Notes under the pieces: generated by a model
Databases searched by the model: none
What the model saw: the letters and a program-made list of their open reading frames with translations, nothing else
Told to the model about the DNA's origin: nothing
Position numbers and translations under genes: made by a program
Assembly: GCA_039028635.1 (NCBI GenBank)
Contig: JBCCHV010000057.1
Location: forward strand, 1-45,604
Direction: 5' to 3'
Source: Acidobacteriota bacterium
Lineage (GTDB): Bacteria; Acidobacteriota; Thermoanaerobaculia; Multivoradales; JBCCEF01
DNA: 45,604 nucleotides
Shown: positions 4,700 through 29,467 of the stretch, in pieces
Numbering within the stretch: position 1 is the first letter of the stretch
Layout of the letters: each line of letters opens with the position of its first letter

Positions 4700-6262
4700 T
4701 CAGAGATACCCGAGGGACTTCAGGAGGTCGCGGGTCTCGCCCTGCATCGAGCGCTCGTCGCCGCAGGCGCCGCCAATCTCGTCGATCTCGGCGTTGTAGC
4801 GGTCGGCTCCGTTCCAGGCCGACAGCAGGCGCTGCAGGCGCTCGAGGGCTTGCGGGTTCTCCTCCGCGACATTGCGCGTTTCCTCGGGATCGGCCTGCAG
4901 GTCGAAGAGGGTGAAGCGCACCCCTTCTCCACCGATCCAGCGCTGCTCCGGCCGGGTCTGGGCGAAGATCAGCTTGTGGCGCTCGTCGCGCACGATCTTC
5001 TGCCACTTGTTCTTGGTCTCCCAGCCGGCCTCCGAGTAGGCCACCGTATCCGCCGGCGCGGCTTCGCCGAGGAGCCGCGGGGTCAGACTCGCCCCCTGGT
5101 TCCAGCGCCCCTCGTCGAGGCCGATGCCGGCGGCTTCGAGAAGGGTCGGCGAGAGATGGATCAGCTCGACCGGTGCCTCGTCGACGCGCGGCTCGAGGAC
5201 TCCCGGATAGTGCACGATGAAGGGCACCCGCACACAGGTCTGAAAGCCGAAGCGGCCGTGGTCGAAGTAGTAGCGATGCTCGCCCAGGGATTCGCCGTGA
5301 TCCGAGGTGAAGACGGTCAGCGTGCGCTCGCGCAGGCGACGCTCGTCGAGAGCCTCCAGGAGGTGGCCGATCTGGGCGTCGTTATAGGCGATCTCAGCGT
5401 CGTAGCGGGCGACATAGAAGGCCAGATCGTCGCGACCATCGATCACCTGATCGCGACCGATACCGGTCATCTGTTGACGCGGCTTGTCGGCGATGTTGAT
5501 CTTGACCGTGTCGTCGAAGAACTCGTCGTTCTGGAAGCGATCCCGCCATTCGCCGGGAGCGCCATAGGGGGCGTGAGGATCGAGATAGTGGACCCAGAGG
5601 AAGTAGGGCTCGTCGCTGTCGGCGATCTGATCGAGCAGGCCGATGGCGAGGTTGGTGACCGCCTCGGCGGTATTGGGATCGTGGTCGGGGTCGTTGGACT
5701 CGAGCTTCCAGGTCTCGATGTAGGTATCGAAGCCCTGGTCGAAGTAGAAATCGCTCGCCAGAGCGGCATTCGCCACCACCGCATGGGTCTGGTAGCCGGC
5801 GCGCTGCAGGCGCTCCGCCAGCATTTCGAAGCGGCACGGCAGCGGCTGACCGATGCGGCGCACGATGCCGTTGTCCTTGGGATAGATGGCGGTGAACATC
5901 GAGGCCATCGAGGGCCCCGTTTTCGGCCACTGCACGGCGGGCTGGTCGAAACGCACCCCTTCCGCCGCCAGCTGGTCGATCACCGGCGAGGTCTGCCGTT
6001 CATAGCCGTAGGCCGAGAGATGGTCGGCGCGCAGCGTATCGACGGTGATCAGCAGGATGTTGCTGCGCGGCGGCAGCGGCGGCTCACCACAGCCGGCCAG
6101 GAAGACGAGGAGCGGGAGCAGGGCGGACAGACGGCCGAGAGTCGACTTGATCAATTGCAGCGTGCCGTGGTTCGGAATCTTCGTGATGCGCGCCCGCCGG
6201 GCCGATCCGGCTCGCCGAGCGCACGATGGCTGGCAACCGATTCTAGCAGCCGAATGCGTCAT
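4700..6262 (-). CDS. Sulfatase-like lipoprotein of the alkaline-phosphatase superfamily (Thr in nucleophile position)
   Basis: This 520-aa protein has an unusually long basic N terminus, a hydrophobic segment and the lipobox LAGC (Cys58), so it is probably a lipoprotein. The catalytic domain shows NILLITVDTLRADH (metal Asp75), HYLDPHAPY and TSDHGESLGEH. The position that is Cys/Ser in formylglycine sulfatases is Thr115 (TGPSMASMFT), and the usual Arg is Met. Family members of this sort are annotated as sulfatase, but the substrate is unknown. It ends exactly at SLGYL, where its two paralogues in the window continue into TPR repeats. It starts one base after the recQ stop behind GGAAGG; a later start nearer the signal segment is possible. 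Confidence 0.82.
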   Translation of the reverse strand: MTHSAARIGCQPSCARRAGSARRARITKIPNHGTLQLIKSTLGRLSALLPLLVFLAGCGEPPLPPRSNILLITVDTLRADHLSAYGYERQTSPVIDQLAAEGVRFDQPAVQWPKTGPSMASMFTAIYPKDNGIVRRIGQPLPCRFEMLAERLQRAGYQTHAVVANAALASDFYFDQGFDTYIETWKLESNDPDHDPNTAEAVTNLAIGLLDQIADSDEPYFLWVHYLDPHAPYGAPGEWRDRFQNDEFFDDTVKINIADKPRQQMTGIGRDQVIDGRDDLAFYVARYDAEIAYNDAQIGHLLEALDERRLRERTLTVFTSDHGESLGEHRYYFDHGRFGFQTCVRVPFIVHYPGVLEPRVDEAPVELIHLSPTLLEAAGIGLDEGRWNQGASLTPRLLGEAAPADTVAYSEAGWETKNKWQKIVRDERHKLIFAQTRPEQRWIGGEGVRFTLFDLQADPEETRNVAEENPQALERLQRLLSAWNGADRYNAEIDEIGGACGDERSMQGETRDLLKSLGYL

Positions 6263-6263
6263 C

Positions 6264-8138
6264 TCAGCCTTCCACCAGACGACTCAGCAGCAGCCCGACA
6301 TTGCGCTCCAGGCTGCGCTCGGCGCAGTAGCCTTCGATCAGCGGCAGGAAGGTCGGTCCCAAGCGCTCGGCCTTGCGATCGCCGATGCCGTGCACCTGCA
6401 GCAGAGCTTGCGGGGTGGTCGGCCGGACCTTCGCCAGCTGGCGCAGAACGCTGTCGTGAAACACCACGTAGGGCGGCACGCCGCGCTCCCGGGCGATGCT
6501 CAAGCGAGCCTCCCGCAGACGCTCGAACAGACCGCGATCGACGCCCTCCCAATCTTCCCCACGGCCACCACCCCGACGGCGCCGCCGGGCGGTGGGCGCC
6601 GGCTGCCGAAAGAGCGCGAAGTCATCGCCCGGAAGCTGCCCCTTGAGGAGATCGACGCCCGCCGCAGTGAGCTGCAACACCGGATAGCGATCCCCGACCG
6701 CCTGCAGGGTCCCCTGGTCGCGCAACTGATCGACGAAGCCCTTGAGCTCGGCGACGGAGAGGCTGGCCAACAGGCCGAAGGTCGACACCTGGTCATGGCC
6801 TTGAGTGACCACCTTTTCGGTCGCCCGCCCTCGCAGGACATCGATCACCTGGCCGGCTCCCCAACGCTGACCGAGGCGGGCGACGCAGGAGAGAATCTTC
6901 TGCGCCAAGGTGAGGGAATCTTCCACCCGCTCGAGCTCGTCGAGACACCAGTCGCAGGCGGCGCAGTTGTCGTCCTCGTAGGTCTGACCGAAGTACTCGC
7001 ACAGGGCCCGATGGCGGCAGGTGGTGGCACCGGCATAGGCCTGCATGGCGCGCAGCAGCTGGCGCGCCCCGGCGCTGAGCTCGCCATCGGCTTCCAAGAG
7101 GCGGCGCCAGGTGGCGAAGTCACCCGGTGAATAGAGCAGCAGGCATTCGGCCTCGAGACCGTCGCGGCCGGCGCGGCCGGCTTCCTGCTGATAGTGCTCC
7201 GGCGACCGCGGGGCGCCGATGTGGATGACATAGCGGACATTCGAGCGATCGATGCCCATCCCGAAGGCCACCGTCGCCACCACCACGTCAACGCGCTCTT
7301 CGAGAAAAGCCTCCTGGCAGCGATGGCGCTCCTCGGCATCGAGGCCGGCGTGGTAGGCGAGCGCTCGGTGGCCCCAGTCGCGCAGCTTCTGGGCCACCGA
7401 CTCGACTTCCTTGCGGGAAATGCAATAGATGATGCCGGCCTCGTCGCGATGGCGCGCCAGGGCCTCCTGGAGTTGCTGATCGACCCGACGTTTGCGCCGC
7501 GAGCGGTAGATCAGGTTCGGCCGGTCGAAGGAGCCGATCAGGATCTCGGCGTCACGCAGGGCGAGCTGCTCGACGATGTCACGCTGCACCTGCTCCGTCG
7601 CCGTCGCCGTGTAGGCGTGGATGGCGATCTCCGGAAAGCGCTCCTTGAGCCGGCCGAGCTCGCGGTAAGGGGGGCGGAAGTCGTGTCCCCACTGGCTGAT
7701 GCAGTGCGCCTCGTCGACCGCCATATAGGCCGGCGAGCAGTCCTCGAGGAAGCTCTGGAAGCCCTGCCCGACGAGGCGCTCCGGGGAGACATAGAGCAGG
7801 CGGTAGTCGCCCCGCCGCAGGCCTTCGCGAATCGCGCGGCGCTCCTCCGGATCCTGGCTCGAGTTGAGACAAGCGGCCGACACGCCGTGGGCTCGCAGGG
7901 CGTCCACCTGGTCCTTCATCAGCGAGATCAATGGCGAGACCACGACCGCCAACCGGCCTTCCCCAAGCAGCGCCGGGGCCTGGAAACAGAGCGATTTCCC
8001 GCCCCCGGTGGGCAGCACGACGAGGGAGTCTCGGCCGGCCACCACGGCTTCCATCGCCTCCCGCTGGAGGGGTCGAAACTCGTCGTAACCCCAGGTGTGG
8101 CGGAGGACTTCGCGGAGAGAATCGGCAGCGGCTGGCAT
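6264..8138 (-). CDS. recQ: ATP-dependent DNA helicase RecQ
   Basis: This is a 624-aa 3'-5' superfamily 2 helicase, close to the usual RecQ length. Motif 0 is YDEFRPLQ, Walker A is PTGGGKS (43-49), and DEAH is at residues 142-145 followed by the RecQ aromatic loop [11 protein letters not shown]. Motif VI is [12 protein letters not shown]. The RecQ zinc cluster ([20 protein letters not shown]) and the RQC winged helix are present, and a C-terminal HRDC domain covers about 530-605 ([20 protein letters not shown]). The role is processing of forks and recombination intermediates. A TAGAAT -10 box lies just upstream. The downstream sulfatase-like gene is only one base away and is probably co-transcribed, though functionally unrelated. 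Confidence 0.96.
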
Positions 8139-8158
8139 GGTCGGCGACGGACTGGCCT

Positions 8159-8164
8159 ATTCTA
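8159..8164 (-). promoter_or_regulatory. -10 box TAGAAT upstream of recQ
   Basis: TAGAAT on the minus strand lies 20 nt before the recQ ATG at 8138, in the 86-bp divergent gap with glycerate kinase. No clear -35 is visible. Confidence 0.35.
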
Positions 8165-8224
8165 GTCTCTCGGCAGCCCCGCCGGCGGATCACCTTCGCC
8201 GCTCCGCCGACTGCCGTCACCACG

Positions 8225-9325
8225 ATGAGAATCCACCTCGCCTTCGATGCCTTCAAGGGCACCCTCAGCGCCGCCGAAGCTTGCCGAGCCGTCGCCCTCG
8301 GCCTCGCCGAGGCGCAGCCCGCGGGCGTCCTTCTCTCCTGGCCCTTGGCGGACGGCGGCGAAGGAACGGCGCGGCGCCTGGCAGCCCTCGCCGCGGCTCC
8401 CTGGCGCAGCCGCACGGTGACCGGTCCACTGCCCAACCGCCCGGCGCGAGCCGGCTTCGCCCTCGATCAGCGCCGCAGTCTCGCCTGGCTCGACGCCGCC
8501 TCCGCCTGTGGCCTGCCCCTCCTCGCGCCGGCGGAGCGCGATCCCCGTCTGACCACCAGCCGCGGCGTTGGCGAGCTGCTGGAGGCGGCCCGCTTGGCCG
8601 GGGCCACCGCGCTGCGAGTGGGTATCGGTGGCACGGCGACGGTGGACGGCGGCTGCGGCGCCGCCACCGCCCTCGGCTGGCGCTTCCTCGACGCTTTCGG
8701 CTCTCCCCTGCCCCCGGGAGGCGCGGCCCTGCGACGGTTGGCCCGCATCGTTCCGCCGAGGCCGCGGCCGACGATGGCGATCGAAGCCCTCTGCGATGTC
8801 GAAAATCCCCTCGACGGCGCCAACGGCGCGGCCGCCGTCTTCGCGCCCCAGAAAGGCGCTGACCCGGCGACCGTCGAGGTCCTCCGGGAAGCTCTCGAAA
8901 ATCTCGCCACGCGAGCGCGAGAAGATCTCGGCCTCGACCTGCGCGGCAAGGCCCGGGACGGCGCCGGCGGCGGTCTCGGGGCCGGCCTGCGGGCCTTCTT
9001 CGGCGCCCGCCTGGTCGCCGGTGCCGAGGCGGTGCTCAACGCCTCCGGATTGCCGGCGGCGATGGCGCCGGGAGACTGGGTGATCACCGGCGAAGGCCGC
9101 CTCGACGAGACCTCCTTCGCCGGCAAGGTGGTGGGCACGGTGAGCGAGCTCGCCCGCCGGCGGGGCGCTCGCCTGGCCTACCTCGTCGGCACGGTCGAGG
9201 GCGATTGGGTGCCGCCCGACGACCGCCTTTGGGAGGCCGCCGGTGCGGTCCGCAACCAGCCCTTCGACGACCTCCGGGAGGCGGCTCGGAGGCTCGGTCA
9301 TCGCCTGTCTTCGCAGGCCAGCTGA
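8225..9325 (+). CDS. Glycerate 2-kinase (GlxK/GarK family)
   Basis: This 366-aa protein covers the whole glycerate kinase family 1 fold. Landmarks are the N-terminal FDAFKGTLSAAEA, PLADGGEGT, GIGGTATVDGG, FAPQKGAD, GAGGGLGAGLRAF and TGEGRLDETSFAGKV. The enzyme phosphorylates D-glycerate to 2-phosphoglycerate with ATP in the cytoplasm, feeding glycolysis from glyoxylate, glycolate or sugar-acid breakdown. The ATG at 8225 is chosen because the conserved N terminus begins there; the frame extends further upstream but overlaps recQ. No other glycerate or glyoxylate pathway gene is adjacent. It converges with the amidohydrolase gene across 13 bp. Confidence 0.93.
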   Translation: MRIHLAFDAFKGTLSAAEACRAVALGLAEAQPAGVLLSWPLADGGEGTARRLAALAAAPWRSRTVTGPLPNRPARAGFALDQRRSLAWLDAASACGLPLLAPAERDPRLTTSRGVGELLEAARLAGATALRVGIGGTATVDGGCGAATALGWRFLDAFGSPLPPGGAALRRLARIVPPRPRPTMAIEALCDVENPLDGANGAAAVFAPQKGADPATVEVLREALENLATRAREDLGLDLRGKARDGAGGGLGAGLRAFFGARLVAGAEAVLNASGLPAAMAPGDWVITGEGRLDETSFAGKVVGTVSELARRRGARLAYLVGTVEGDWVPPDDRLWEAAGAVRNQPFDDLREAARRLGHRLSSQAS

Positions 9326-9338
9326 TCGTTCGACGACG

Positions 9339-10436
9339 CTACTCCGGCAGTGCCGGAAAGAGCGCAGTCTCGGGCACGTCGAGGAGACGCAGGGCGTTGC
9401 CGTAGTAGAGCTTGCGCAGCACCTCGTCGGGCAGATCGAGACCGTAGAGCTTCCAGTGGGCGTGGCGCTTGCGGTAGTAGTCGAAGTACTCGTCGGCGGT
9501 CTCGAGGGTGCGAAAGTAGACCGGATACTCCTCCGGCCGCCAGGAGTCCTTGCCGAACAGGATGCGGTCCTGGTAGCGCACCAGGAACTGCCGCGCCATG
9601 CGCGGCTGGCGGCCGAGCTCGGCGAGCACCGCGCCAATCTCGCTGTAGACGTTGGGCAGGTCGTCGAGGAGATCCCCGAGGCGCGCCAGATCGCCCCCCA
9701 GCCAGCCGAGATGGGCGGCGATGAAGGCCGTCTCCGGGTGACGGCGGAAGAGGCTCCACTGCTCCTCCATCACCTGCTCCCAGGGCGGGAACCGATCCGG
9801 CGGCCGAGCCCGGTTCGGGCGCTGCTTGAGCTCCAGCCAACGCTCGTTGAAGCGGTCATGGGGCGCGAAGAAAGAGGCCGGCTCGCCGGTGTGGATGAGC
9901 ACCGGGATGCCGAGCTCTGCGCACTTGCGCCAGATCGGGTCGAGGCGCGGGTCGTCCGTCGGTACCCGTTGGCCGGCGCTGTCCGTCAAGGTCAGGCCGA
10001 GATTCTTGAAGATCTTCAGGCCGCGGGCACCGGCGCGGTAGTCGGCCTCGAGGCGCTGCGCGGCGCGGGCCCCGAAGCCCGGCTCGCCGATGCCGTCGAA
10101 GTCGACCGTCGCGAAGGTCAGAAAGCGCCCCGGGAAACGACCTTCGAAGGCCGCGACGCTGGCCTCGAGGCGCTCTCCCGTGCCGCCACTGAGGTTGACC
10201 AACAGCGCGATGTTGAGGGCGTCCATGTCGGCGACCACGGCGGCCACCTCGGCCGCCGACATGTCCGCCGCCCGATGATGGGAGTGGACATCGACCAGCG
10301 GGTAGCGGGCGCGCTCGACGGGGTTCTCGGGAACCACCAGGGTCGATCGCGGCTCATACTCCTCGAAGGACATCTCCTGGGCCGCCAACATCGGCACCAG
10401 CAGGAACAGACTCAAGCTCCCGATCATCGACCGCAC
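9339..10436 (-). CDS. Secreted amidohydrolase-family (TIM-barrel) enzyme
   Basis: The protein is about 365 aa with a Sec signal peptide (SLSLFLLVPMLAAQ) and an amidohydrolase-2-type metal barrel. The first strand carries DVHSHH (HxH ligands); later landmarks are GLKIFKNLG, VLIHTGEP, FIAAHLGW and the C-terminal LFGKDSW. The substrate is not predictable: relatives act on decarboxylation or hydrolysis of ring and lactone substrates, and the acting site here is outside the cytoplasm. The start is taken as the GTG at 10436, five nt after AGGAGG; an in-frame GTG at 10442 overlaps that SD and is less likely. Residues before the barrel (FEEYEPRSTLVVPENP) form a short linker. The gene stands alone. 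Confidence 0.85.
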   Translation of the reverse strand: MRSMIGSLSLFLLVPMLAAQEMSFEEYEPRSTLVVPENPVERARYPLVDVHSHHRAADMSAAEVAAVVADMDALNIALLVNLSGGTGERLEASVAAFEGRFPGRFLTFATVDFDGIGEPGFGARAAQRLEADYRAGARGLKIFKNLGLTLTDSAGQRVPTDDPRLDPIWRKCAELGIPVLIHTGEPASFFAPHDRFNERWLELKQRPNRARPPDRFPPWEQVMEEQWSLFRRHPETAFIAAHLGWLGGDLARLGDLLDDLPNVYSEIGAVLAELGRQPRMARQFLVRYQDRILFGKDSWRPEEYPVYFRTLETADEYFDYYRKRHAHWKLYGLDLPDEVLRKLYYGNALRLLDVPETALFPALPE

Positions 10437-10557
10437 CGCCACCTCCTTCTCTCACCCAAACCCTCGGAACTAGATTCCGCAAGCTCTATTCACCGCGGAT
10501 CCCTACGACCTCCGTAGTAGGATGGCACACGTCGACCAACCCGCGGAAGGAGATTCC

Positions 10558-11898: not shown

Positions 11899-11909
11899 GT
11901 CCGGGCGCC

Positions 11910-11951
11910 GCAGGCTGCCGAGTCAGACTCTCGACTGGCTCAGCAGCCTGC
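11910..11951. terminator. Convergent-gene hairpin (possible terminator or solo repeat)
   Basis: GCAGGCTGC (11910-11918) pairs with GCAGCCTGC (11943-11951), with inner GAGTC/GACT pairing. It lies between the convergent PQQ-propeller and Cys-rich genes and includes the end of the latter. There is no T-run, so intrinsic termination is uncertain. The arms match the core of the terminal repeats of the elements at 34359 and 45018. Confidence 0.35.
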
Positions 11952-12656: not shown

Positions 12657-12660
12657 CGGC

Positions 12661-16949: not shown

Positions 16950-18194
16950 TCACCGCGCCTCGGGCGGTCCCTCACCGGTAGCGTTGGGATCGAGGCCTCG
17001 CGGCAGCAGCAGCCACAGGAGCGCCGGGCTCTTCATGCGCCCCGCCACCTCGGCGGCGGCGGCGCCGGGCCCCCAAAAAACGTCGCCCCGCACCGGACCG
17101 CGGATCGCGCCGCCAGTGTCCTGGGCGATCAGCAGCCGCCGCAGGGGCAGGTCCGCTTCGCCAATGCGCGGTGAGGGAGCCGTGCTGTCGATCCAGATCG
17201 GCGCCCCGAGGGGCAAGAACTGGCGATCCACGGCCAGCGAGCGCTCGGGGGTCAACACCACCCCTTGACTCCCGATCGGCCCCGCCTGGTCGAGCTCGCG
17301 AAAGAAGATGTAGGAACGGTTTTCGGCCATCAGCGCGGCCGCCGCCGCGCCGTTCTGCTCCAGCCAGCGCCGAATCGACTGCATCGAAACCTCTTCCCGC
17401 AGGAGCTCGCCCCGGTCCACGAGAGAGCGTCCGATGGCGTGGTAGGGATGGCCGTTCTGCGCCGCATAGCCCACCCGCATCGCCGTCCCGTCATCGAGCT
17501 CGAGCCGCCCCGAGCCCTGGATGTGGAGGAAGAAGGCGTCGATCGGATCGTCGACCCAGGCCAGCTCGAGACCACGGCCGGCGAGGGAACCGGTGTCGAG
17601 GGCGGCGCGATCGTCGAAGGGTCGCAGCTTGCCAGCCTGAATTCGCCCCGCCAGCCGCCGCCCCTCGAGGTCGTCACGGAACTGGCCGAGATCGACCGAG
17701 ACCAGCTCCGGTGGTCGCCGATAAAGGGGGTGGGCGAAGCGCTCCGAGGGGCGCCGGCTGCCGTTCAAGGTGGGCTCGTAGTAGCCCGTCAACAGGCCTT
17801 CCTCGGTCTCGCCATCGAGCACCTGCCAGGGCCGGAAGTGGCGCTCGAAGAATTCCCGCGGCGCGTTCTCGGCGCCGGCCACGGAGTCGCAGGCCGGACG
17901 CCAGTCGGCGAGCGTCCCGGCCAAACCGTCGGAGCTCACCGAGTTGCCGTCGTCGCGCCGGCTCCAGCGCCGGCAGGTGCGCTCGAAGGCGACCAGGGCC
18001 GCCCCATGATCGTCCTCGGCCCAGCCGGCGAGGGCCGAGAGCTCGGCCGCCACCAGCACCCGCTGCGGCGGCGCGGGCAGCTCGGTTTCGGTGCTGGCCG
18101 GTGGCTCGACCTCTGCCGGCGGGGGCCAGAAGGTCGCCGCCAGCGCCCACAGCAGGAGCACGGCACACAGGCCTTGCCAGATCCGGAGAGTCAT
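16950..18194 (-). CDS. mltA: MltA-type membrane-bound lytic murein transglycosylase
   Basis: This 414-aa protein has an N-terminal membrane anchor (IWQGLCAVLLLWALAATFW) without a proper lipobox, unlike E. coli MltA. The MltA double-psi barrel and 3D domain follow: LTGYYEPTLNGSR, FFLHIQGSGRLELDDG, GYAAQNGHPYHAIGR, NRSYIFFRE, VDRQFLPLGAPIW, and AQDTGGAIRGPVRGDVFWG. The last contains the catalytic Asp359, equivalent to Asp308 of E. coli MltA. It cleaves the MurNAc-GlcNAc glycan bond to form 1,6-anhydroMurNAc. It is the last gene of a five-gene envelope operon; its ATG overlaps the stop of the preceding phosphodiesterase gene (ATGA). Confidence 0.94.
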   Translation of the reverse strand: MTLRIWQGLCAVLLLWALAATFWPPPAEVEPPASTETELPAPPQRVLVAAELSALAGWAEDDHGAALVAFERTCRRWSRRDDGNSVSSDGLAGTLADWRPACDSVAGAENAPREFFERHFRPWQVLDGETEEGLLTGYYEPTLNGSRRPSERFAHPLYRRPPELVSVDLGQFRDDLEGRRLAGRIQAGKLRPFDDRAALDTGSLAGRGLELAWVDDPIDAFFLHIQGSGRLELDDGTAMRVGYAAQNGHPYHAIGRSLVDRGELLREEVSMQSIRRWLEQNGAAAAALMAENRSYIFFRELDQAGPIGSQGVVLTPERSLAVDRQFLPLGAPIWIDSTAPSPRIGEADLPLRRLLIAQDTGGAIRGPVRGDVFWGPGAAAAEVAGRMKSPALLWLLLPRGLDPNATGEGPPEAR

Positions 18195-20161
18195 GGTGCG
18201 GGATCGAGCAGTGCCGTCACCACCCGTCCTTCGGCCTGCGCCGGGGCCGGAATGCCGAGCACCGCGGCGAGGGTCGGGGCGAAGTCGATGTGGCGCATGG
18301 CGGGAGCGACGACACCGCGAGCGAAGCCCGGGCCCTGGGCATAGAAGATGGCGTGCATCGAGCGCCGACGGGGCGGAAAGCCGTGCTGTCCGGCTCCCCA
18401 GGGCAGGCGAGTCGGCGCCACCACCGCCTCACCGCGCCACGCGCGCGGATAGTAGCCGGGAGCGGGGTCGAAGTAGAGATCACCGCCGGCGACACCTCCG
18501 CCGCCGAGCTCCGGCTCCTCCTCCGGACGGAAGACCCGTCGCACCAGCGCCTCGCCGGTCAATGGATCGCGCGCCGCGAGCAATGCCGCCGCCGCTTGGT
18601 CGAGGACCCGCGAGCGCTGGTCGAGGGGAACGATGCCCTGCTTCCAAGAAACGTCGTTGACCTTGATCGAGAAGGCATCGCCGAAGGCCGGTGCCAGAGC
18701 CCGGGTGCGGCCGAGGTCGATGCCCCCGTCGGCGCGCCACACCAGCAGTCCGGCCGCTGCGAGCACCTCGTTGACCAGCAGGTTCTGGCCGACGCCGGCC
18801 ATGCCGTGATCGCTGGTCAAAGCCACCGAGGATCCGGCCGGCAACGCCGCGGTGATCGCTCCCAACCAGTCGTCCAGCAGGACGAAGACACGGTGATAGT
18901 AGGGCTCGATGCGGGCCGCCATCGCGGCATCGTGGCGCGGCGAGGCCGGATCGAGGAGCCCCATCCAGGTATGCCCGGCGGGATCCGCCATCGGAAGGTA
19001 GTGAAAAACCACCTCCGGGCGCCAGCGCTGCAGGGCCCACAGGGTGGCGCGCCGGCTGAGCTCGACATCGAGAGCGGTGAGCTCGAGCACCCGGTCCTCG
19101 GCTTCGCCGCTTCCCCCCATCATCATCGGGGGCCCGAGGGCGCCATCCTCGTAGAGCCGGAACTGGGTATCGTGGAATCCCGGGTAGGCGCGGCGGTAGG
19201 CCTCGAGCTCGGCCTCCGGGGCCAGTCCGTCGAGGTGGTGGACGGCGCGGCGGTAGAGCATCACGTCGCGGCCGTCCGGCGACAGCGCGAAGAGACGGAA
19301 GAGGGTATGACCGCGCTGCTCGCCATCGCTGACCGCCACGGCCTTGCTCCAGCTTCCGAGATCGCTCGCGGTGGCGCTCGCGGGCCGCAACCGGAAGCCA
19401 CACTCGGGAGATGCCTCGCCCTGACAGACGCGCGCCGTGTCGAGACCTTGGGTGGCGACCTCGGGATCGTCGAAGAGCAGAGTCAGAAATCTGCTGTCCC
19501 CCACCTCCTCGACGATTTCGAGGCTGCCCGGCGGCGCCCGCCAGGCCTCGCGGGCCGGTTGCGCCGCGGCGGCGGTCAAGACCCGGCTCCTGGCGATCAC
19601 GTTCTCGAAGCCACTCACCGAGAGATAGCGTTCGGCGGGCACCCCGGCGGCGACCAGCTCGCGGCGATGGGGTTGCGGTGGGTAGGACTGGGTGGCCGAG
19701 AGCACCACCACCCGCTTGCCGGCTTTCGCCGCCGTGACGTACAGCGGCTCGGCGAGCAGCGCTTCCGAGCTGAAGCCACGACGCCGCTCGAGCAAGGTGT
19801 GCTCAGCGGCGGGCAGCAGGGGTGTCGAGTTGCCGCTGATGCCGTTGCAGCTCGCGCCGCAGCCAGTCCACAAGACGGCATGGCCAACGGCGGTCTTCGA
19901 AGGTAGGCCGACAATGCTGTGCTCGGCACCGGCTCCCGCCTCCGCCAGGCGAGCCAGATGGGGCAGCCGGCCGTCTGCCAGCAGCTCGTCGACGACCAGA
20001 TCGCCGGCGCCATCCCACGAGACGATCAGCATCAAGGGTGGTGCGGGGAGCGCTCGCCCCTCGTCAAGGGCCCGAAGCTCGCCCGGAGACGTCGCCCGCG
20101 GGGCCTGGCTGCAAGCGAGAGCCAGAGCGGCGACGCCCAGCATCGTCGCCCACGCTCTCAT
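18191..20161 (-). CDS. Nucleotide pyrophosphatase/phosphodiesterase-like lipoprotein
   Basis: This 656-aa protein has the lipobox LALAC (Cys17), then an alkaline-phosphatase-superfamily domain of the type I phosphodiesterase/NPP kind. Metal Asp50 is in MLIVSWDGAG, nucleophile Thr90 in GLPSKTAVGH, then YLPMADPAGHTWMG, ALTSDHGMAG and late metal His in WGAGQHGF and MRHIDFAPT. Known relatives hydrolyse phosphodiester or pyrophosphate bonds in nucleotides or lipid head groups; the substrate here is unknown. At 656 aa it is longer than a minimal NPP domain because of an insertion between the nucleophile and the central metal motif. It lies 6 nt after the DUF2147 gene and overlaps mltA, suggesting a job at the cell envelope. 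Confidence 0.85.
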   Translation of the reverse strand: MRAWATMLGVAALALACSQAPRATSPGELRALDEGRALPAPPLMLIVSWDGAGDLVVDELLADGRLPHLARLAEAGAGAEHSIVGLPSKTAVGHAVLWTGCGASCNGISGNSTPLLPAAEHTLLERRRGFSSEALLAEPLYVTAAKAGKRVVVLSATQSYPPQPHRRELVAAGVPAERYLSVSGFENVIARSRVLTAAAAQPAREAWRAPPGSLEIVEEVGDSRFLTLLFDDPEVATQGLDTARVCQGEASPECGFRLRPASATASDLGSWSKAVAVSDGEQRGHTLFRLFALSPDGRDVMLYRRAVHHLDGLAPEAELEAYRRAYPGFHDTQFRLYEDGALGPPMMMGGSGEAEDRVLELTALDVELSRRATLWALQRWRPEVVFHYLPMADPAGHTWMGLLDPASPRHDAAMAARIEPYYHRVFVLLDDWLGAITAALPAGSSVALTSDHGMAGVGQNLLVNEVLAAAGLLVWRADGGIDLGRTRALAPAFGDAFSIKVNDVSWKQGIVPLDQRSRVLDQAAAALLAARDPLTGEALVRRVFRPEEEPELGGGGVAGGDLYFDPAPGYYPRAWRGEAVVAPTRLPWGAGQHGFPPRRRSMHAIFYAQGPGFARGVVAPAMRHIDFAPTLAAVLGIPAPAQAEGRVVTALLDPAP

Positions 20162-20167
20162 CGGACC

Positions 20168-21846: not shown

Positions 21847-21851
21847 CCGAG

Positions 21852-23792
21852 TCAGGGCTCCTGGCGGGCAGCGAGCTCGGCCAGCCAGCGCCGGGCCTGG
21901 CGCCCTTCCGGCGCCTCAGGAGCCAGCTCGACGGTGCGCTCGAGGACCCGCTTGGCGGCGGGCCAGTCGCCGCGGGCCAGGTGCACCTGGCCGAGGACCA
22001 GCCAGACCGTCGGCCAGCTCGGCAGCAGCTCCGTGGCACGGCGCAATCGTTGCGCGGCGGCGGTCGTGTCCCCAGCCGCCAGCTCGACCTGCGCCAGCCG
22101 CGTCAGGAGCGCCGCGCTGTCGGCTCCGGCCTGGGCGGCGGCGGTCAACAGGCGGCGTTCTTCCACCGCCCGCCCGGCACGGGCCGCCAGCTCGGCCCGG
22201 CGCAGCCAGGCCGAAGCCGAACGCGGATCGAGCTCGATGGCACGCCGGTACTCGGCTTCGGCCGCCGGCAGATCGCCGACCTCGGCGAGGGCGTCGCCGA
22301 GGCTGATCCGCAGCAGGTCGAGACCCGGGTTGAGGCGCACCGCCTGGCGGTAGGAAGCCACCGCCCCGGCAAGATCACCGCCGGCCCCTTGGGCGCGCGC
22401 CAGATTGGTCCAGAAGGGCAGGTTCTTGGGGTCGACCTTCACCAACTCCCGCAGGGTCGCCAGGGCGACCGGAACGTCGCCTCGCTGGAGCTGCTCCTTG
22501 GCCTCGGCGAGGCGGTTCAAGAGCACCATGCCGTCCTTGGGGTCACGCCGCCGGTCGCCGACACCGCCGGCGGTGTAGCCCAGGCTGCGCACCGCGGCGG
22601 CGAGCTCGGCGTCGACCCCGGCGGGCTCGGCCTGGCGGTCGCCCATCTCCGCCTCGAGGCGGCGTAGCTGGCGCTTGAGGCGGCGCGCGACGCGACTTTC
22701 CTCGGCCAGCCGATTGTGATCTTCGGCGGGGTCCCGAGCGACGTCGAAGAGCTCCGGCTTCGGCGCCACCACCAACCTCCAAGCACCGTCCGTCAGGGCC
22801 GTCAGGGGCGACCAGCCGTAGGCCCGCGCCGGCAGGGTCGACTCGCTGAACACCGCCTCCGGCGGAGGCTTCGGTCGCTGCGGAAAAACCCCCGGTAGAA
22901 CCGTACCGGGCAGCTCTCCGACCCGCGCCAGCGCCGTCAGGGTGGGCGCCAGGCGCCGAGCCGCCACCGTCTCCGTCACCACCTTGCCGGTCGGGACCCC
23001 GGGACCGGCGAGCATCAGCGGCACCTCGACCACGGCGCGGTAGAGGAAGATGCCATGGCCTTTTTCTCCGTGCTCACCAAGGGACTCGCCGTGATCCGCC
23101 ACCACCGCCACCAGGGCACCATCGGGGATGGCCGCGAGCAAGCGACCGAGCTCGGTGTCGACCTTCTCGATTTCCCCTCGGTAACCGTCGCGGGCCTCGG
23201 CCGCCGGCTGGTAAGGAGCATGGGGGTCGTAGTAGTGCACCCAGAGAAAGAATGGCTTGCCGCCGGCACGGCCGGCCAGCCAGCGACGCGCTGCTGCCGT
23301 GACCGCGGTCGCATCGCGCTCCGCATAGCCGTACTCGCCGGTGACCTCGGCAGCCATCGAGTCGTCGTAGTGGTCGAAACCACGAGCCAAGCCGAAGCGC
23401 CGGTCGAGCACCCGCGAGGCCACCACCGCCGCGGTGGCATAGCCGGCGGCGGCGAACCGCGTCGCCAGCGTCGGAAGATCGCCGGGCAGGGCGCTCAGGC
23501 CGTTGTCGCGCACGCCGTGTTCCGGAGGATCGAGGCCGGTGAGCAGCGAGGCATGGGCCGGCAACGTGATGGGAGCGGCGGTGATGGCGCGATCGAAGCG
23601 CACGCCGCGTTCGGCGATGCCGTCGAGATTCGGCGTCCGCGCGGCGCCGCCGTAGGCACCGAGGGCATCGCTGCGGGTCGTGTCGAGGGTCACCAAGAGG
23701 ACATTCGGCGGGCCTTCGGCAGCGACCGATCCGCTGCTCCCGAGAAGGGCTAGGACCAGTGCAACGGCCGGCGAAATGGGCTTGTTCATCAT
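21852..23792 (-). CDS. Exported sulfatase-like protein with C-terminal TPR repeats
   Basis: This is a 646-aa protein. The signal peptide MNKPISPAVALVLALLGSSG ends near SVAA-EG. The alkaline-phosphatase-superfamily domain has Asp37 in NVLLVTLDTTRSD, Thr76 in the nucleophile position (TLPAHASLLTG; formylglycine Cys/Ser and the following Arg are absent, Arg replaced by His80), WVHYYDPHAPY and ADHGESLGEH. The domain closes with SLGYT, after which five to six TPR-like repeats run to the end, for example LAEVGDLPAAEAEYRRAIEL. The likely location is periplasmic, and the substrate is unknown. The start at 23792 has GAGG seven nt upstream. It is first in the five-gene operon with the methyltransferase, DUF2147, phosphodiesterase and mltA. 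Confidence 0.87.
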   Translation of the reverse strand: MMNKPISPAVALVLALLGSSGSVAAEGPPNVLLVTLDTTRSDALGAYGGAARTPNLDGIAERGVRFDRAITAAPITLPAHASLLTGLDPPEHGVRDNGLSALPGDLPTLATRFAAAGYATAAVVASRVLDRRFGLARGFDHYDDSMAAEVTGEYGYAERDATAVTAAARRWLAGRAGGKPFFLWVHYYDPHAPYQPAAEARDGYRGEIEKVDTELGRLLAAIPDGALVAVVADHGESLGEHGEKGHGIFLYRAVVEVPLMLAGPGVPTGKVVTETVAARRLAPTLTALARVGELPGTVLPGVFPQRPKPPPEAVFSESTLPARAYGWSPLTALTDGAWRLVVAPKPELFDVARDPAEDHNRLAEESRVARRLKRQLRRLEAEMGDRQAEPAGVDAELAAAVRSLGYTAGGVGDRRRDPKDGMVLLNRLAEAKEQLQRGDVPVALATLRELVKVDPKNLPFWTNLARAQGAGGDLAGAVASYRQAVRLNPGLDLLRISLGDALAEVGDLPAAEAEYRRAIELDPRSASAWLRRAELAARAGRAVEERRLLTAAAQAGADSAALLTRLAQVELAAGDTTAAAQRLRRATELLPSWPTVWLVLGQVHLARGDWPAAKRVLERTVELAPEAPEGRQARRWLAELAARQEP

Positions 23793-23808
23793 GGAAGTGC
23801 CTCGGGGA

Positions 23809-23835
23809 GGCCGATACCTCGGCCCAGGGATCCCT
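23809..23835 (-). promoter_or_regulatory. Structured 5' leader of the sulfatase-like/mltA operon
   Basis: Two adjacent perfect inverted repeats lie just before the SD: GGCCGA-TACC-TCGGCC (23809-23824) and AGGGATCCCT (23826-23835). A TAGCAT box follows upstream (plus-strand ATGCTA at about 23837-23842). They could shape translation of the first gene. Confidence 0.35.
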
Positions 23836-23917
23836 ATGCTATCGTCGAAAGTCAGTCGATCGACCGAAGGAATGTCCTTCTCCGCCCACACGCGATGGGT
23901 TGTCTGCTGGAATCGAG

Positions 23918-23933
23918 GGATTGGGGCCAATCC
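23918..23933. promoter_or_regulatory. Palindrome in the divergent intergenic region
   Basis: GGATTGG-GG-CCAATCC forms a perfect 7-bp dyad. It lies between the minus-strand sulfatase-like operon and the plus-strand protease gene, where an operator would be expected. No regulator is assigned. Confidence 0.25.
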
Positions 23934-24015
23934 TTGATGACGGTGGTGAGCTTCGAAGCGCGCCTGGCGGGACCGGTCGACAGGTTTTGATTTATTTGTC
24001 AAGGAGACCGCTACG

Positions 24016-27000
24016 ATGGTTCGCAACCGCTGGTTTGCCGTGGGGACGGTTGTCCTCGCGGTGCTCGTCACTGCCCCACTCTTCGCCTTTCGCCAGCCGG
24101 ACGAGTCGCCGGCTCGCCAGAAGTCCTACCGCCACGCCGACCTCTACATCGGCAACCTTCTGTTTCCGGCGGAGAGCCTTCCGGTTGGAGCCGTGGCGAC
24201 GGCCCAGCAAAGCCTCGCGAGCCTCGGCCTGCCCGCCAGCAAGGCCCGCATGGACATCCGCAGCGGCCGCTGGGGCACTCTCCTGCCCTCCGACCCGATC
24301 CTTCCCGGCCGCGGCAACAGCCTGACCTGGCAGAGCCTGCGAACCGCCGCCCCGGCATCTCAGGAAGACTATGAATCGGTCGCCTGGGACGCCTTCTATG
24401 GTTACCTGTCGGCGCGCCAGAACGCTCTCGGCCTCGACCTCGACGAACTGCAGAATCCCGGCCGCGTGGCGGTTCACGGGGACGGAAAGATCGTCCAGAT
24501 CAACGTGCCACGCGAGTACCACGGCATTCGGGTCCGCGACAGCTTCCTGACCGCCGTCATCAACAACGGCAATCTGGTGCTGTTCGGCGCCCAGAAGTGG
24601 GGCGACCTCGGCATTTCGACGATTCCGGCTCTCACCGCCGAGGAGGCCAGGGACAAGGTCGGCCGCTACCTCTCGCCGCTGATCGCCGACGCGACCTGGC
24701 GCAAGCCCCACCTCGAGATCATTCCGATGGCCGTCGGCACCGAGATGTCGCGCATCGCCGTCGGCCAGGGCTACACCTATCGTTTGGTCTGGGTGATCAG
24801 CCCGAAATTCTCGACCGACCTCGCCAACTGGGAGAGCCTGGTCGACGCCCAGACCGGTGAGCTCCTGTCCTTCGAGGACATGACCGCCTACGCCAGCACC
24901 CGCGCGGTCGAAGGCGGCGTCTTCCCGATCTCCAACGACGGCCTGGCGCCGGACGGTGTCGAGGTGACCTACTCGCTGCCGTTCGTCGATGTGACCAACA
25001 ACGGCGTCACCCGCTTCACCGACACCGGCGGCAACATCCAGTCCTGCATCGATGGCACCATCTCGTCGAGACTCCAGGGTCGCTACATCCAGATGAACGA
25101 CAACTGCGGCGCGATCAGCGAGAGCACCACCGGTGACGTCCTCGACTTCGGCGGCAATCCGCCGCCGAGCATCGACTGTCAGGTCGCCGCCGGCCGCTCG
25201 CCGGGTAACACCCACTCGAGCCGCTCCGGCTACTACGAGCTGACTCGCCTCAACGAGATGGCCCGCAGCCACACGCCGGGCGACAGCTGGCTCAACACGC
25301 CGCTGACCGCCACCATGAACATCAACTCCAACTGCAACGCCTCCGGCGGCGCCGGCGGGGTCAACTTCTTCACCTCCGGCGGCGGCTGCAGCAACACCGG
25401 CGAGCTCGCCGGTGTGTTCGACCACGAGTGGGGTCACGGTCGCGACGCCACCGACCTCGCCCCCGGCTTCTCGTCACCGAGCGAGGGTATTGCCGACATC
25501 TATGCCTCGCTGCGCCTCAACACCTCGTGCATCGGTCGCAACTTCCGCCTCGGCAACCCCTGCAATGGCTACGGTGACCCCTGCAACACCTGCGACGGCG
25601 TGCGCGACATCGACTGGGCGAATCGCAACTCCGGCGTGCCCCACGGCATCGCCTTCATCGACGCCGCCTGCGGTAGCGGTGGCGGCACCCCCTGCGGCGG
25701 CTCGACCCACTGCGAGGGCGCCGTCTACGCCGAGGCCGTGTGGGACCTGTGGAATCGTGACCTGCAGTCGAACTACGGCATGAGCCTCGACACGGCTCGC
25801 GAGATCGCCTCGCGACTGACCTTCCTGGGCGCCAGCCCGGTGGGGAACTGGTACAACTGCGTCGATGGCGCCGGTACCGGCGATGGCTGCAACGCCGATG
25901 GCGGCTACCTCAACTACCTGGCGATCGATGACGACAACGGCGACCTCACCGACGGTACGCCGCACATGCAGGCGATCTTCGACGCCTACGACCGTCATGA
26001 CATCGCTTGCCCGACGCCGGCCGTGCAAGACGCCGGCTGCTCCGGTGCGCCGACAGTGGCGCCGGTGGTCAGCAGCAGCACCTCGGATCGCGCCGCGACC
26101 CTCACCTGGGGCGCCGTGGCCGGCGCGTCGAGCTACCGCATTTTCCGCACCGAGGGCGTCCACGGCTGCGACTTCGGCAAGACCATCGTCGGCGACACGA
26201 CCGATCTCAGCTTCACGGACACCGGCCTGCGCAACGGCGAAGAGTACTTCTACGTCGTCGCAGCGATGGGTGCCACGGGCGAGACCTGCATGAGCCCGGT
26301 GAGCGCCTGCACCAACGTGACGCCGACCGGCTCCGCCAATCTGGTGGTCGACGAGTCGACCGCCGGGGTTCAGATCTTCACCGGTGACGGCGATATCTTC
26401 CTCGACAACTGCGAGGACGCCCGCATCGCCTTCGAGCTGCAGAACATCGGTACCGGCAGCTTGACCAACGTGCGCATCGATTCGGTGACCTCGCCGAGCC
26501 ACCCGGCGATCGACGCTTCGATCACCTTCCCGGCGGTCTCGGCGGCGACGCTGGCGGACGGTTGCGGCATCGCCATCGGCCAGTTCGATTTCCGACCGAC
26601 GGGCTTGGCCCACAACGACACCGTCGAGTTCACCATCGAGGTGACCAGCGACGAGCTGTCGCCGGCAACCAAGACCCACACGGTTCTGGTGCCCTTCACG
26701 GAGTCGGATTTCTCGGCGCCGAGCAACAACCTCTTCGACTTCGAGACCGACTTCGAGAACTGGTCAGTCTTCGAGGGCACCTTCAACCGCACTTCCGCCA
26801 ACGGTGGCGGCAACGGCACCGCCTTCGGCGTCGCGTCGTCCGGTGGCATCGACAATGCCTGCGATCGTGCGCGCTCGCCCCTGGTGTCGCTGAACAACGG
26901 GTCGACCCTGTCGCTGTGGAACAACTTCACCATCGAGAACGTCTCCGGCGGCACCTGGTACGACCGCGCCAACGTCGCGATCGTCGAGACGAACGGCGAC

Positions 27001-27360
27001 CGTACAGCGGTCGAGCCCGACGGGGGACGCGCCTACAACACCACCAACCAGGCCAACTACAACGGCTGTAACCCGTCCAACGGTTGGGCCGGCACGGCCA
27101 ACACCTGGGCCGCCAGCACCTGGACCGCCGCAGCTCTGCAGTCGTCCACTTTCGCTGGTGATGCGGTGCAGATCGAGGTGACCTACGGCACGGACGGTGG
27201 TCTGGCCCTCGCCGGCTTCAACTTCGACCAGGTCTTGGTGACCAACTCGTCGCTCCAGATTCCGGACGCGCAGTCCGATGTCTGCGGAGTCAGCGGGCTG
27301 ATCTTCGTCGACGGCTTCGAGAGTGGGAACACGTCGGCCTGGACGGCGACCGTGCAGTAA
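24016..27360 (+). CDS. Secreted fungalysin-like zinc metalloprotease with C-terminal tail tag
   Basis: This large exported protein has 1114 aa. The signal peptide (residues 3-23, VVLAVLVTAPLFA) is followed by an FTP/PepSY-type propeptide (about 30-290) and a catalytic domain with HEWGH (His470, Glu471, His474) and third ligand Glu490 in SEGIADIYA, the gluzincin/M36-like arrangement. The catalytic domain is rich in Cys pairs. An FN3-like domain (about 685-775, TLTWGAVAGASSYRIFRTEG) and two further beta-rich domains follow. The protein ends with IFVDGFESGNTSAWTATVQ, a tail shared with two other exported proteins here. The start has AAGGAG nine nt upstream. It is probably secreted as a zymogen for extracellular protein breakdown, and is monocistronic or weakly linked to the next gene. 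Confidence 0.9.
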   Translation: MVRNRWFAVGTVVLAVLVTAPLFAFRQPDESPARQKSYRHADLYIGNLLFPAESLPVGAVATAQQSLASLGLPASKARMDIRSGRWGTLLPSDPILPGRGNSLTWQSLRTAAPASQEDYESVAWDAFYGYLSARQNALGLDLDELQNPGRVAVHGDGKIVQINVPREYHGIRVRDSFLTAVINNGNLVLFGAQKWGDLGISTIPALTAEEARDKVGRYLSPLIADATWRKPHLEIIPMAVGTEMSRIAVGQGYTYRLVWVISPKFSTDLANWESLVDAQTGELLSFEDMTAYASTRAVEGGVFPISNDGLAPDGVEVTYSLPFVDVTNNGVTRFTDTGGNIQSCIDGTISSRLQGRYIQMNDNCGAISESTTGDVLDFGGNPPPSIDCQVAAGRSPGNTHSSRSGYYELTRLNEMARSHTPGDSWLNTPLTATMNINSNCNASGGAGGVNFFTSGGGCSNTGELAGVFDHEWGHGRDATDLAPGFSSPSEGIADIYASLRLNTSCIGRNFRLGNPCNGYGDPCNTCDGVRDIDWANRNSGVPHGIAFIDAACGSGGGTPCGGSTHCEGAVYAEAVWDLWNRDLQSNYGMSLDTAREIASRLTFLGASPVGNWYNCVDGAGTGDGCNADGGYLNYLAIDDDNGDLTDGTPHMQAIFDAYDRHDIACPTPAVQDAGCSGAPTVAPVVSSSTSDRAATLTWGAVAGASSYRIFRTEGVHGCDFGKTIVGDTTDLSFTDTGLRNGEEYFYVVAAMGATGETCMSPVSACTNVTPTGSANLVVDESTAGVQIFTGDGDIFLDNCEDARIAFELQNIGTGSLTNVRIDSVTSPSHPAIDASITFPAVSAATLADGCGIAIGQFDFRPTGLAHNDTVEFTIEVTSDELSPATKTHTVLVPFTESDFSAPSNNLFDFETDFENWSVFEGTFNRTSANGGGNGTAFGVASSGGIDNACDRARSPLVSLNNGSTLSLWNNFTIENVSGGTWYDRANVAIVETNGDRTAVEPDGGRAYNTTNQANYNGCNPSNGWAGTANTWAASTWTAAALQSSTFAGDAVQIEVTYGTDGGLALAGFNFDQVLVTNSSLQIPDAQSDVCGVSGLIFVDGFESGNTSAWTATVQ

Positions 27361-27364
27361 CGCC

Positions 27365-29467
27365 ATGGAGCTCGGCGATCCTCGTCTCCGATGGGGGTCG
27401 CCGCTCTCGCCTGCTTTGTTTCGCTGGATCTCGACGGCCTGCGTCTTCTTGGCGCAGGCCGTTTTCGTTCTCGCCGAAGCGCCGCCAGCGCCGCCGCGAC
27501 CGAACGTCCTCCTGATCACCGTCGACACCCTACGGCCGGATGCCCTCGGCTGGATCGGCGGCGGTGACCACACTCCGGCCCTCGATCGCCTGGCAGCCTC
27601 CGGAGTGCGCTTTCCGCGCGCCCTCTCCCCCGCTCCGCTGACCCTGCCGAGCCATACCTCGATACTCACCGGCCTGCTGCCGCGACGCCACGGCGTACGC
27701 GACAACGGTCAGACCGTCGCCCCCGATCTCGTCACCCTCGGCCAAAGCCTCAAGGCCGTCGGCTATCGCAGCGCCGCCTTCGTCAGCGGCTTTCCCCTGG
27801 TTGCCGACTTCGGCCTCGACGGCGGCTTCGATCACTACGACGACGATCTCGGTGAGAGCGGGCTCGAGCGTCCGGCCGCAGCCACCGTCGACGCCGCCCT
27901 CGAGTGGTTGCGCTCGGAAGACACCGGTCCCTGGTTTCTGTGGCTACACCTCTATGATCCGCACGATCCCTACGAGCCGCCCGCGGAGCTCCGGCGCCCC
28001 GGACCGCGGGGTGCCTACCTCGGCGAAGTGGCGGCCGTCGACCGTGCCCTCGGCCGGCTGCTCGCCGCCACCGCGGGCAAATCGACGCTGACCGTCTTCA
28101 CCTCCGATCACGGCGAGAGTCTCGGGGAGCACGGCGAGCAGACCCACGGCTTCTTCGCCTACCAGGCGACCCTCGAGGTTCCGCTGGTGATCTCCTGGCC
28201 GGGGCGACTGGCGCCGGCCGAAAGAAGCCACCGGATCCAGCTCGTCGACCTCTTCCCCACCCTCGCCGGCCTGCTCTCCCTGGAGACACCGCAAGACCTC
28301 GATGGCGTCGACCTCACGCCGACCCTCGAAGGTCGCGAGCAGCCCGTCGCCGCCGCCTACCTCGAGTCGTTGCGGCCCTGGATCTCCTACGGTTGGGCAC
28401 CGCTGCGGGCGGTGATCGCGGAGGGCTGGAAGCTGATCGCCGCGCCGCGGGCGGAGCTCTACGACCTCGACGCCGATCCCCAGGAAAAGAACAACCTGGT
28501 CGACCAGGAGCGGCGCCGTGCCCGTGCCCTGCAGCAGCGCCTGCGCGAGATCGAGGCGTTACCGGCCCGCCAGAGCGATCAACGGCTCGACCGCGAGACG
28601 CGCGGCAAGCTGCGTGCTCTGGGCTACCTCGGTGGCAGCTCGCGGCGGGGTGAGGCACCGGCCGACGCCCCTGATCCCAAGGACCGCCTCGACGTCTGGA
28701 ACCTCCTCGGTTCGGCCGAGGCGGAGATCGACGCCGGCCGGCCGCGAGAAGCGCTGGCGCTGTTCGACCGCGCCCTCGGGCGTGATCCCGACAATCGCTT
28801 CGCCCTGGCGCGGTCGGCGGACACCCTTCTGGGCCTCGGTCGGCCGCGCGAAGCCGCGCAGCGGGCCCGGCGCGCCACCGACCTCGACCCCGATCAACCG
28901 GAGGCTCACCGCACCCTGGCCCTCGCCCTCGGCCGACTCGGCGATGGCAAGGCGGCCGCCAAGGCCTGGATGGAGGTGGTGCGCTTGCAGCCCCGTCGCG
29001 CCGATGGCTGGATGGCCCTGGGCTCGAGCCTCGGCCTCGCCGGAGAAGGGGCGCGGGCGACGGCCGCCTTCGAGCGCGCCGTCGAGCTGGCTCCCGACGA
29101 TCCTCAAACCCATCTCCGGCTGGGCTTTGCCCGCCATGGTCAGGGCGATCGCAGCGGCGCCATTCGGGCCCTCGAGGAGGCCGCTCGGCGAAGCGGCGCG
29201 AGCTTCGCCCACAACAGCTCGCTGGGCCTGCTGCTGGTCGCCGCCGGCTCTCCCGACGAGGCCCGTCCGTGGCTCACCCGGGCGACTCCGAGGGAGCCCG
29301 ACTTCGTCCCCGCCAGGCTGGCCCTCGCCCGCCTCGAGCTCGCCGCCGAGCGACGGCCGCAGGCTCGCCGAGCCTTGAGCGATGCCCTCGCCCAGGCTCC
29401 GGCCCTGCGTGACCAGCTCGCCGACGACCCCGCCCTCGGTCCCCTGCTCGCCGAAGCCGACCCCTGA
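27365..29467 (+). CDS. Exported sulfatase-like protein with C-terminal TPR repeats (second copy)
   Basis: This protein is about 700 aa. The signal segment (ALFRWISTACVFLAQAVFVLAEA) is followed by the alkaline-phosphatase-superfamily domain: Asp54 in NVLLITVDTLRPD, Thr93 in the nucleophile slot (TLPSHTSILTG), WLHLYDPHDPYEP and TSDHGESLGEH. The domain closes with ALGYLGG, then a DPKD linker and about seven TPR repeats (for example AGRPREALALFDRALGRDPDN). It is paralogous to the protein at 21852-23792 and to the TPR-less one at 4700. The ATG at 27365 lies 4 nt after the protease stop but has no SD; TTG codons at 27414 and 27450 are alternatives. A terminator-like hairpin sits inside the signal-peptide codons. 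Confidence 0.84.
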   Translation: MELGDPRLRWGSPLSPALFRWISTACVFLAQAVFVLAEAPPAPPRPNVLLITVDTLRPDALGWIGGGDHTPALDRLAASGVRFPRALSPAPLTLPSHTSILTGLLPRRHGVRDNGQTVAPDLVTLGQSLKAVGYRSAAFVSGFPLVADFGLDGGFDHYDDDLGESGLERPAAATVDAALEWLRSEDTGPWFLWLHLYDPHDPYEPPAELRRPGPRGAYLGEVAAVDRALGRLLAATAGKSTLTVFTSDHGESLGEHGEQTHGFFAYQATLEVPLVISWPGRLAPAERSHRIQLVDLFPTLAGLLSLETPQDLDGVDLTPTLEGREQPVAAAYLESLRPWISYGWAPLRAVIAEGWKLIAAPRAELYDLDADPQEKNNLVDQERRRARALQQRLREIEALPARQSDQRLDRETRGKLRALGYLGGSSRRGEAPADAPDPKDRLDVWNLLGSAEAEIDAGRPREALALFDRALGRDPDNRFALARSADTLLGLGRPREAAQRARRATDLDPDQPEAHRTLALALGRLGDGKAAAKAWMEVVRLQPRRADGWMALGSSLGLAGEGARATAAFERAVELAPDDPQTHLRLGFARHGQGDRSGAIRALEEAARRSGASFAHNSSLGLLLVAAGSPDEARPWLTRATPREPDFVPARLALARLELAAERRPQARRALSDALAQAPALRDQLADDPALGPLLAEADP
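27434..27465 (+). terminator. Intrinsic terminator hairpin 74 nt after the protease gene, inside the next coding region
   Basis: ACGGCCTGCG (27434-27443) and CGCAGGCCGT (27453-27462) form a perfect 10-bp stem with a 9-nt loop, followed by TTTC then GTTC. The geometry is that of an intrinsic terminator. It falls within the first codons of the following sulfatase-like gene, so it could act as an attenuator. Confidence 0.5.

Follow-up and report, generated by a model that had tools for sequence, protein, structure and literature searches.

A threonine-type class of PF00884 proteins with a putative phosphate-ester active site in an Acidobacteriota genome

The window analysed here (contig JBCCHV010000057.1 of an Acidobacteriota bacterium, 45,604 nucleotides) spans an entire contig of a genome that measures 6.28 Mb and is 95% complete, and holds three genes for proteins of family PF00884, called below the 4700, 21852 and 27365 proteins after their first coordinates (Table 1). 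All three carry a threonine at the position of the sulfatase cysteine or serine nucleophile, in the contexts QWPKTGPSMASMFTAI around Thr115 (4700), ITLPAHASLLTG around Thr76 (21852) and LTLPSHTSILTG around Thr93 (27365), and the arginine of the sulfatase motif is a methionine in the first and a histidine in the other two. Re-read from the window, these residues are as claimed by an earlier sequence-only reading, which had also described one lipoprotein ending in SLGYL and two proteins running on into tetratricopeptide repeats (TPRs); a lipobox (LAGC) and Pfam TPR matches bear out this second claim. The Leu-Gly-Tyr (LGY) motif that closes the 4700 protein recurs as SLGYT in 21852 and ALGYL in 27365, each ahead of repeats matched by several Pfam TPR families. 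A single hydrophobic N-terminal segment directly precedes the catalytic domain, as read from the sequences and from the model of the 27365 protein, in which one N-terminal helix leads into the catalytic domain and this into the helical repeats of a TPR superhelix.

Table 1. Coordinates in the window of the three threonine-type genes and their motifs (pLDDT, predicted local distance difference test; pTM, predicted template modelling score).
Feature	Position (nt unless stated)	Strand	Basis or remark
520-residue Thr-type PF00884 lipoprotein, C-terminal end SLGYL	4700..6262	-	PF00884 E 2e-54; AlphaFold pLDDT 92.9
Lipobox LAGC, 4700 protein	residues 55-58	-	Read from sequence
Thr115 codon, 4700 protein	5918..5920	-	Alignment; same column as formylglycine Cys
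DHGES motif, 4700 protein (predicted metal Asp-His pair)	5288..5302	-	Alignment
LGY motif at C-terminus, 4700 protein	4706..4714	-	Sequence; invariant in class
Thr-type PF00884 domain with TPRs (21852 protein)	21852..23792	-	Pfam, PF00884 E 4e-36
Likely start of 21852 protein, MMNKPIS, with signal peptide	23792	-	Open frame reaches 24071
Thr76 codon (nucleophile position), 21852 protein	23565..23567	-	Numbered from MMNKPIS
DHGES motif, 21852 protein	23082..23096	-	
LGY motif ahead of TPRs, 21852 protein	22575..22583	-	
TPRs, 21852 protein	21888..22511	-	Pfam TPR families
Thr-type PF00884 domain with TPRs (27365 protein)	27365..29467	+	PF00884 E 2e-39; AlphaFold pLDDT 93.4, pTM 0.86; open frame begins 27323
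Thr93 codon (nucleophile position), 27365 protein	27641..27643	+	
DHGES motif, 27365 protein	28106..28120	+	
LGY motif ahead of TPRs, 27365 protein	28619..28627	+	
TPR superhelix, 27365 protein	28703..29464	+	Pfam and helices in model

The threonine belongs to a set of residues that change together. A PF00884 search of the host genome gave about 31 proteins; among the 29 that were aligned, 26 are of the threonine type and three of the cysteine type (L002, L003, L020). The latter show D-D, a Cys followed four positions later by Arg, and D-N, and have no LGY. The 26 paralogues have D-T (D-A in one), Thr, varied residues at the Arg position, D-H-G-E and His, and are invariant, in the domain numbering of the 27365 protein, at Asp12, Thr51, His158, Asp206, His207, Glu209, His219 and Leu377-Gly378-Tyr379, among others; LGY is therefore no less constant than the catalytic residues. 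Many of these proteins end a few residues past LGY, and others carry further sequence, consisting of TPRs where this was checked. No competing Cys or Ser was found at the nucleophile position, and a chance or misaligned threonine is ruled out by the alignment, in which Thr shares a column with the cysteine of the genome's own three sulfatases. Thr is present in 26/26 paralogues and in 117/117 homologues, the latter from an alignment selected for threonine-type rows. The genome also encodes a protein with a formylglycine-generating enzyme (FGE) domain, which together with the three Cys sulfatases excludes a genome devoid of formylglycine machinery and makes a missing FGE an unlikely reason for the threonine.

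Two further proteins of the genome deserve mention. One PF00884 paralogue (L035, C12:91500-93800) reads N-G-L for D-T-L, Gly for Thr and L-Y-G for D-H-G, and from its sequence is a probable pseudoenzyme. The other, a phosphodiesterase-like protein (L036, C59:300-4400), has TPR-like repeats preceded, in a reading by eye, by an LGY-like LRELVALGYIS, and the LGY tail may thus be shared beyond PF00884.

The same coupling is seen outside the host genome. A search of 60 genomes of the phylum, in which proteins were chosen by Pfam family regardless of threonine, gave 94 proteins among the matches listed, with 46 Thr, 45 Cys, one Ser and two gaps at the nucleophile column; since only the best-scoring matches are listed, here and in the other-phyla set, Thr:Cys ratios are rough. 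Thr is accompanied by D-T, and all 46 Thr proteins have His after the predicted metal Asp, 44 have the Glu, 45 have His at the Lys position and 43 have LGY, with an Asp or Glu two residues before the loop His in 41. Among the Cys proteins, Arg is found in 45/45, D-D in 44/45 and D-N in 41/45; they carry Lys or Arg where the Thr class has His, and none shows an aligned LGY (0/45). The lone Ser protein (L164) retains the Thr-class residues and the tail and, with a second rare Ser variant that also has both (L304, S-Q-G-S-Y), offers a natural test case for the nucleophile. In ten genomes of other phyla, picked for holding a threonine-type member and assigned to phyla by record title, 75 proteins among the matches listed (52 Thr, 21 Cys) repeat the coupling. 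One of the two full-length exceptions in that set (L311), an apparent Thr protein with sulfatase residues, is actually a Cys type, its C-T-P-S-R motif being shifted by one column. L262, equally mixed in its residues and gapped at the motif, may be a case of the same misalignment, although a check found no motif in it. A larger set, in which Thr rows are over-represented, shows the coupling too. Related loci were collected with a four-row profile and are biased to DHGE[SM]LG and FLW[LV]H; the profile of all 26 rows gave no conserved stretch. Two metagenome-assembled genomes with records titled Bifidobacterium breve (L119) and Klebsiella pneumoniae (L141) carry threonine-type genes typical of environmental phyla, and these titles are probably wrong.

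The active-site residues of the class match those of phosphoethanolamine transferases. With reference proteins from E. coli MG1655, EptA and EptB show E-T, Thr, D-H, E and His in the aligned columns, as does the Thr class except for Asp in place of the first Glu, AslA has D-D, Ser, Arg, D-N and Lys, and YidJ has D-T, Cys, Arg, D-H and Lys. Since YidJ shares D-T and D-H, the class is defined not by these two features alone but by Thr, the absence of Arg and a His in the Lys position. MCR-1 binds its zinc through Glu246, Asp465, His466 and a Thr285 that is phosphorylated, while His395 and His478 lie close to a second zinc (PMC5031297). The spacing from Asp to the last His is 13 both in MCR-1 (Asp465-His478) and in the 27365 protein (Asp206-His219, domain numbering). 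The threonine of EptA cannot be fixed from sequence alone, hhalign placing the query Thr between two EptA threonines. Two positions before the loop His stands Asp or Glu in the Thr class and Gly in EptB/EptC, while D-x-H is also found in OpgB; this acidic residue may point to a more complete second-metal site like that of phosphatases. Altogether, nucleophile and other sulfatase-specific residues change jointly to an EptA/MCR-type set, which gives good support to the first proposal that phospho-transfer or hydrolysis is more likely than sulfatase activity.

The scaffold tells another story. A profile search of solved structures ranks chains of Cys sulfatases, choline sulfatase and phosphonate monoester hydrolases nearest. 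Foldseek places choline sulfatase first for the 4700 model (E 4e-31), and the VIA Z scores of this model are 40.3 for an S1_25 sulfatase module, 38.6 for SpAS2, 35 for phosphonate monoester hydrolase and 34 for PbgA/YejM. EptA and LtaS structures are absent among the best 50 VIA matches listed, which does not show that the folds differ. By hhalign, YidJ is matched at E 5e-43, versus 8e-14 for EptA and 2e-7 for OpgB. The overall sequence is thus much nearer to Cys sulfatases, so that a phosphate assignment has to rest on a handful of residues; both points weigh against it. The affinity with the phosphoethanolamine-transferase and LtaS branches put forward by the sequence-only reading accordingly stands for the catalytic residues, and fails for the scaffold and for the multi-pass membrane domain, which is lacking.

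Most structural alignments of the 4700 model break off at about residue 433 of its 459, and the LGY helix (447-455) thus lies outside the part matched by most solved sulfatases. Protomers of choline sulfatase and of phosphonate monoester hydrolases are linked by their C-terminal tails, and the choline sulfatase tails close the active site of the neighbouring protomer (PMC5870055). By analogy, we hypothesize that the LGY tail could have a role like that of the choline sulfatase tail.

Considering the coupled residues, we find it likely that all three are members of a large PF00884 class that uses threonine, and not formylglycine, on phosphate esters. Our best reading is that they would be exported or lipid-anchored metal-dependent enzymes, a phosphodiesterase or phosphatase being more likely than a lipid transferase; hydrolysis is favoured over transfer because of the hydrolase-like scaffold and the lack of a lipid-transferase membrane domain. 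From the export and lipid signals, the predicted fold, the residue identities and their coupling observed here, we infer the following scheme for metal, chemistry and substrate, and for the roles of LGY and TPRs. The protein would be exported or lipid-anchored outside the cytoplasm, where the Asp of VDT, the Thr, and the Asp and His of DHGE would hold a metal, probably zinc, that would activate the Thr hydroxyl. Either a second metal or the phosphate of the substrate may be bound by the D/E-x-H of the 'WLHxxDPH' loop and the His after DHGE (in THG), at a place where sulfatases use His and Lys. The threonine would then attack the phosphate to give a phosphothreonine, resolved by water (more likely) or by an acceptor hydroxyl (less likely). 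The class-specific C-terminal helix ending in LGY would close the domain, and the TPR superhelix that follows it in two of the three proteins would presumably bind proteins.

The most serious alternative, although we judge it unlikely, is that these proteins transfer phosphoethanolamine or phosphoglycerol to envelope glycans or lipids and are functionally equivalent to EptA, OpgB or LtaS, with a membrane lipid as the source of the donor. The catalytic set common to EptA and EptB and the D-x-H aligned with OpgB are in its favour, as is the genomic context on contig C61 (L243, C61:1-20000), where four threonine-type genes lie within 14 kb among glycosyltransferases. Genome-wide, threonine-type clusters are weakly enriched within 10 kb of glycosyltransferases (5/18 versus 1.9 expected, P 0.03), an enrichment whose significance is lost at 15 kb and for which some contig spans were interpolated. 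It is opposed by the single hydrophobic N-terminal segment in place of a multi-pass membrane domain, by a backbone nearer to hydrolases, and by the surroundings of the window's own genes: mixed housekeeping genes, MltA, DUF2147, a LepA-like GTPase and peptidases, with no envelope, glycosyltransferase or lipid-modification operon found beside the three genes. This mixed set gives no pointer to the substrate and was discarded as a clue. The envelope substrates first proposed thus find slight support in the export or lipid anchor and in the genome-wide proximity to glycosyltransferases, and none at this locus.

It is very improbable that the proteins are non-catalytic binding or scaffold proteins equipped with TPRs. 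The TPR fusion, the degenerate paralogue L035 and the same-fold E. coli LapC/YejM, annotated as a lipopolysaccharide signal transducer, would fit such a role, but the class hardly varies at Thr, Asp, Asp-His and His, and L035 alone of the genome's set has lost them, all together. Least probable of all is a sulfatase that uses its threonine directly or modified in a new way, since, for all the proximity of whole sequence and fold to formylglycine sulfatases, the Arg, Lys, Asn and second Asp that serve sulfate binding or formylglycine are lost along with the Cys, and oxidation of threonine would yield a ketone and not formylglycine (PMC5066984).

Some neighbouring genes are recorded here as separate observations. 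One of the C61 glycosyltransferases is a 910-residue GT4-GT2 fusion. In two genomes of the same genus, a gene of about 240 codons precedes a threonine-type gene and a large downstream gene (L243:3203-5446, L244:14173-16435); its product in L243 is without a Pfam match. In the window, a fourth protein of the alkaline phosphatase superfamily (18191-20161, minus strand; PF01663 E 2e-22) has a lipobox-like N-terminus and adjoins the MltA gene (16950-18194). Finally, a C-terminal tag resembling a sorting signal is common to three proteins that differ from one another but all look exported: DGFESGNTSAWTATVQ (24016-27360, plus strand), DGFERGNTTAWTTSVE (36172-37524, minus strand) and DGFESGNTSAWSDSQS (39342-40994, plus strand).

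A tree of 125 domains, sampled mostly from one phylum and computed with the trait columns removed, unites AslA, YidJ and the Cys-class rows in a single clade (Shimodaira-Hasegawa-like approximate likelihood ratio test 99) and leaves the Thr rows as a grade between this clade and EptB/EptC; branches are long and many inner ones are without support. This topology fits a single Thr/Cys switch; taking the Ept proteins as outgroup would make Thr the ancestral state. A bolder proposal, which we regard as possible and hold only tentatively, is that the Thr/D-H/His/LGY proteins form one enzyme class, as common as true sulfatases in the PF00884 of the phylum, with a two-metal phosphodiesterase site (D/E-x-H and THG His) and a required LGY tail, within which formylglycine sulfatases arose once by a coordinated swap of the whole site. 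Should the single-switch tree hold, these proteins would provide living relatives for testing the origin of formylglycine catalysis by mutagenesis.

The bare observation of threonine in PF00884 is already known, as it was published in 2016: the passages of the SulfAtlas paper that deal with these proteins report Thr for Cys/Ser in 30/59 PF00884 seed sequences, hold that they are not acceptable as functional sulfatases without experiment, and name a TXNXE subset with no mention of coupled residues, an LGY tail or a TPR fusion (PMC5066984). In the open-access literature searched, we found no characterised member of the class and no account of its coupled residue set, LGY tail, TPR-fused form or tree position with one switch. 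Automatic annotation names these proteins sulfatases. Among the matches listed, about half of the PF00884 proteins in the sampled genomes of the phylum, and about two thirds in the ten genomes of other phyla, have the different catalytic core, so that sulfatase counts used to infer the degradation of sulfated glycans in such bacteria may be too high. The LGY tail offers a simple sequence mark to separate the Thr class from Cys sulfatases.

To conclude, the class can be set beside three known systems. NPP/type I phosphodiesterases (PF01663), whose Thr nucleophile motif is of the T-x-P-x-H type, belong to the same alkaline phosphatase superfamily, and their hidden Markov model matches the window's Thr-type proteins in part and above the cut-off (E 3e-14 to 3e-15). 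However, PF00884 scores far higher, the best stretch covers about the first 66 profile positions in the two TPR proteins, and the second-zinc motif of NPP was not identified. With formylglycine sulfatases (SulfAtlas S1), choline sulfatase, SpAS1/SpAS2 and phosphonate monoester hydrolases, the class shares PF00884, the whole fold, the position of the nucleophile loop, the first metal Asp and the xPH-loop His, but has Thr for Cys/Ser, Met, His or another residue for Arg, and His for Lys. Where S1 sulfatases have the calcium ligands Asp-Asp and Asp-Asn and a Lys contact, it has D-T, D-H and His; DH is likewise present in YidJ and the phosphonate monoester hydrolases, unlike in the DN sulfatases, and in the aligned samples the Cys types are without the LGY tail. 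NCBIfam phosphoethanolamine transferase models reach at most 43 bits on the 4700 protein, against cut-offs of about 500-660. EptA, EptB and MCR resemble the class in an acidic residue followed by T-x-R, a Thr nucleophile, DHGE, a His 13 residues after the Asp and the His of an x-H-x-P loop. They differ in that their Glu is an Asp in the Thr class and that they possess a multi-pass membrane domain, whereas the Thr-class proteins have none and carry a sulfatase-like C-terminal subdomain with the LGY tail.

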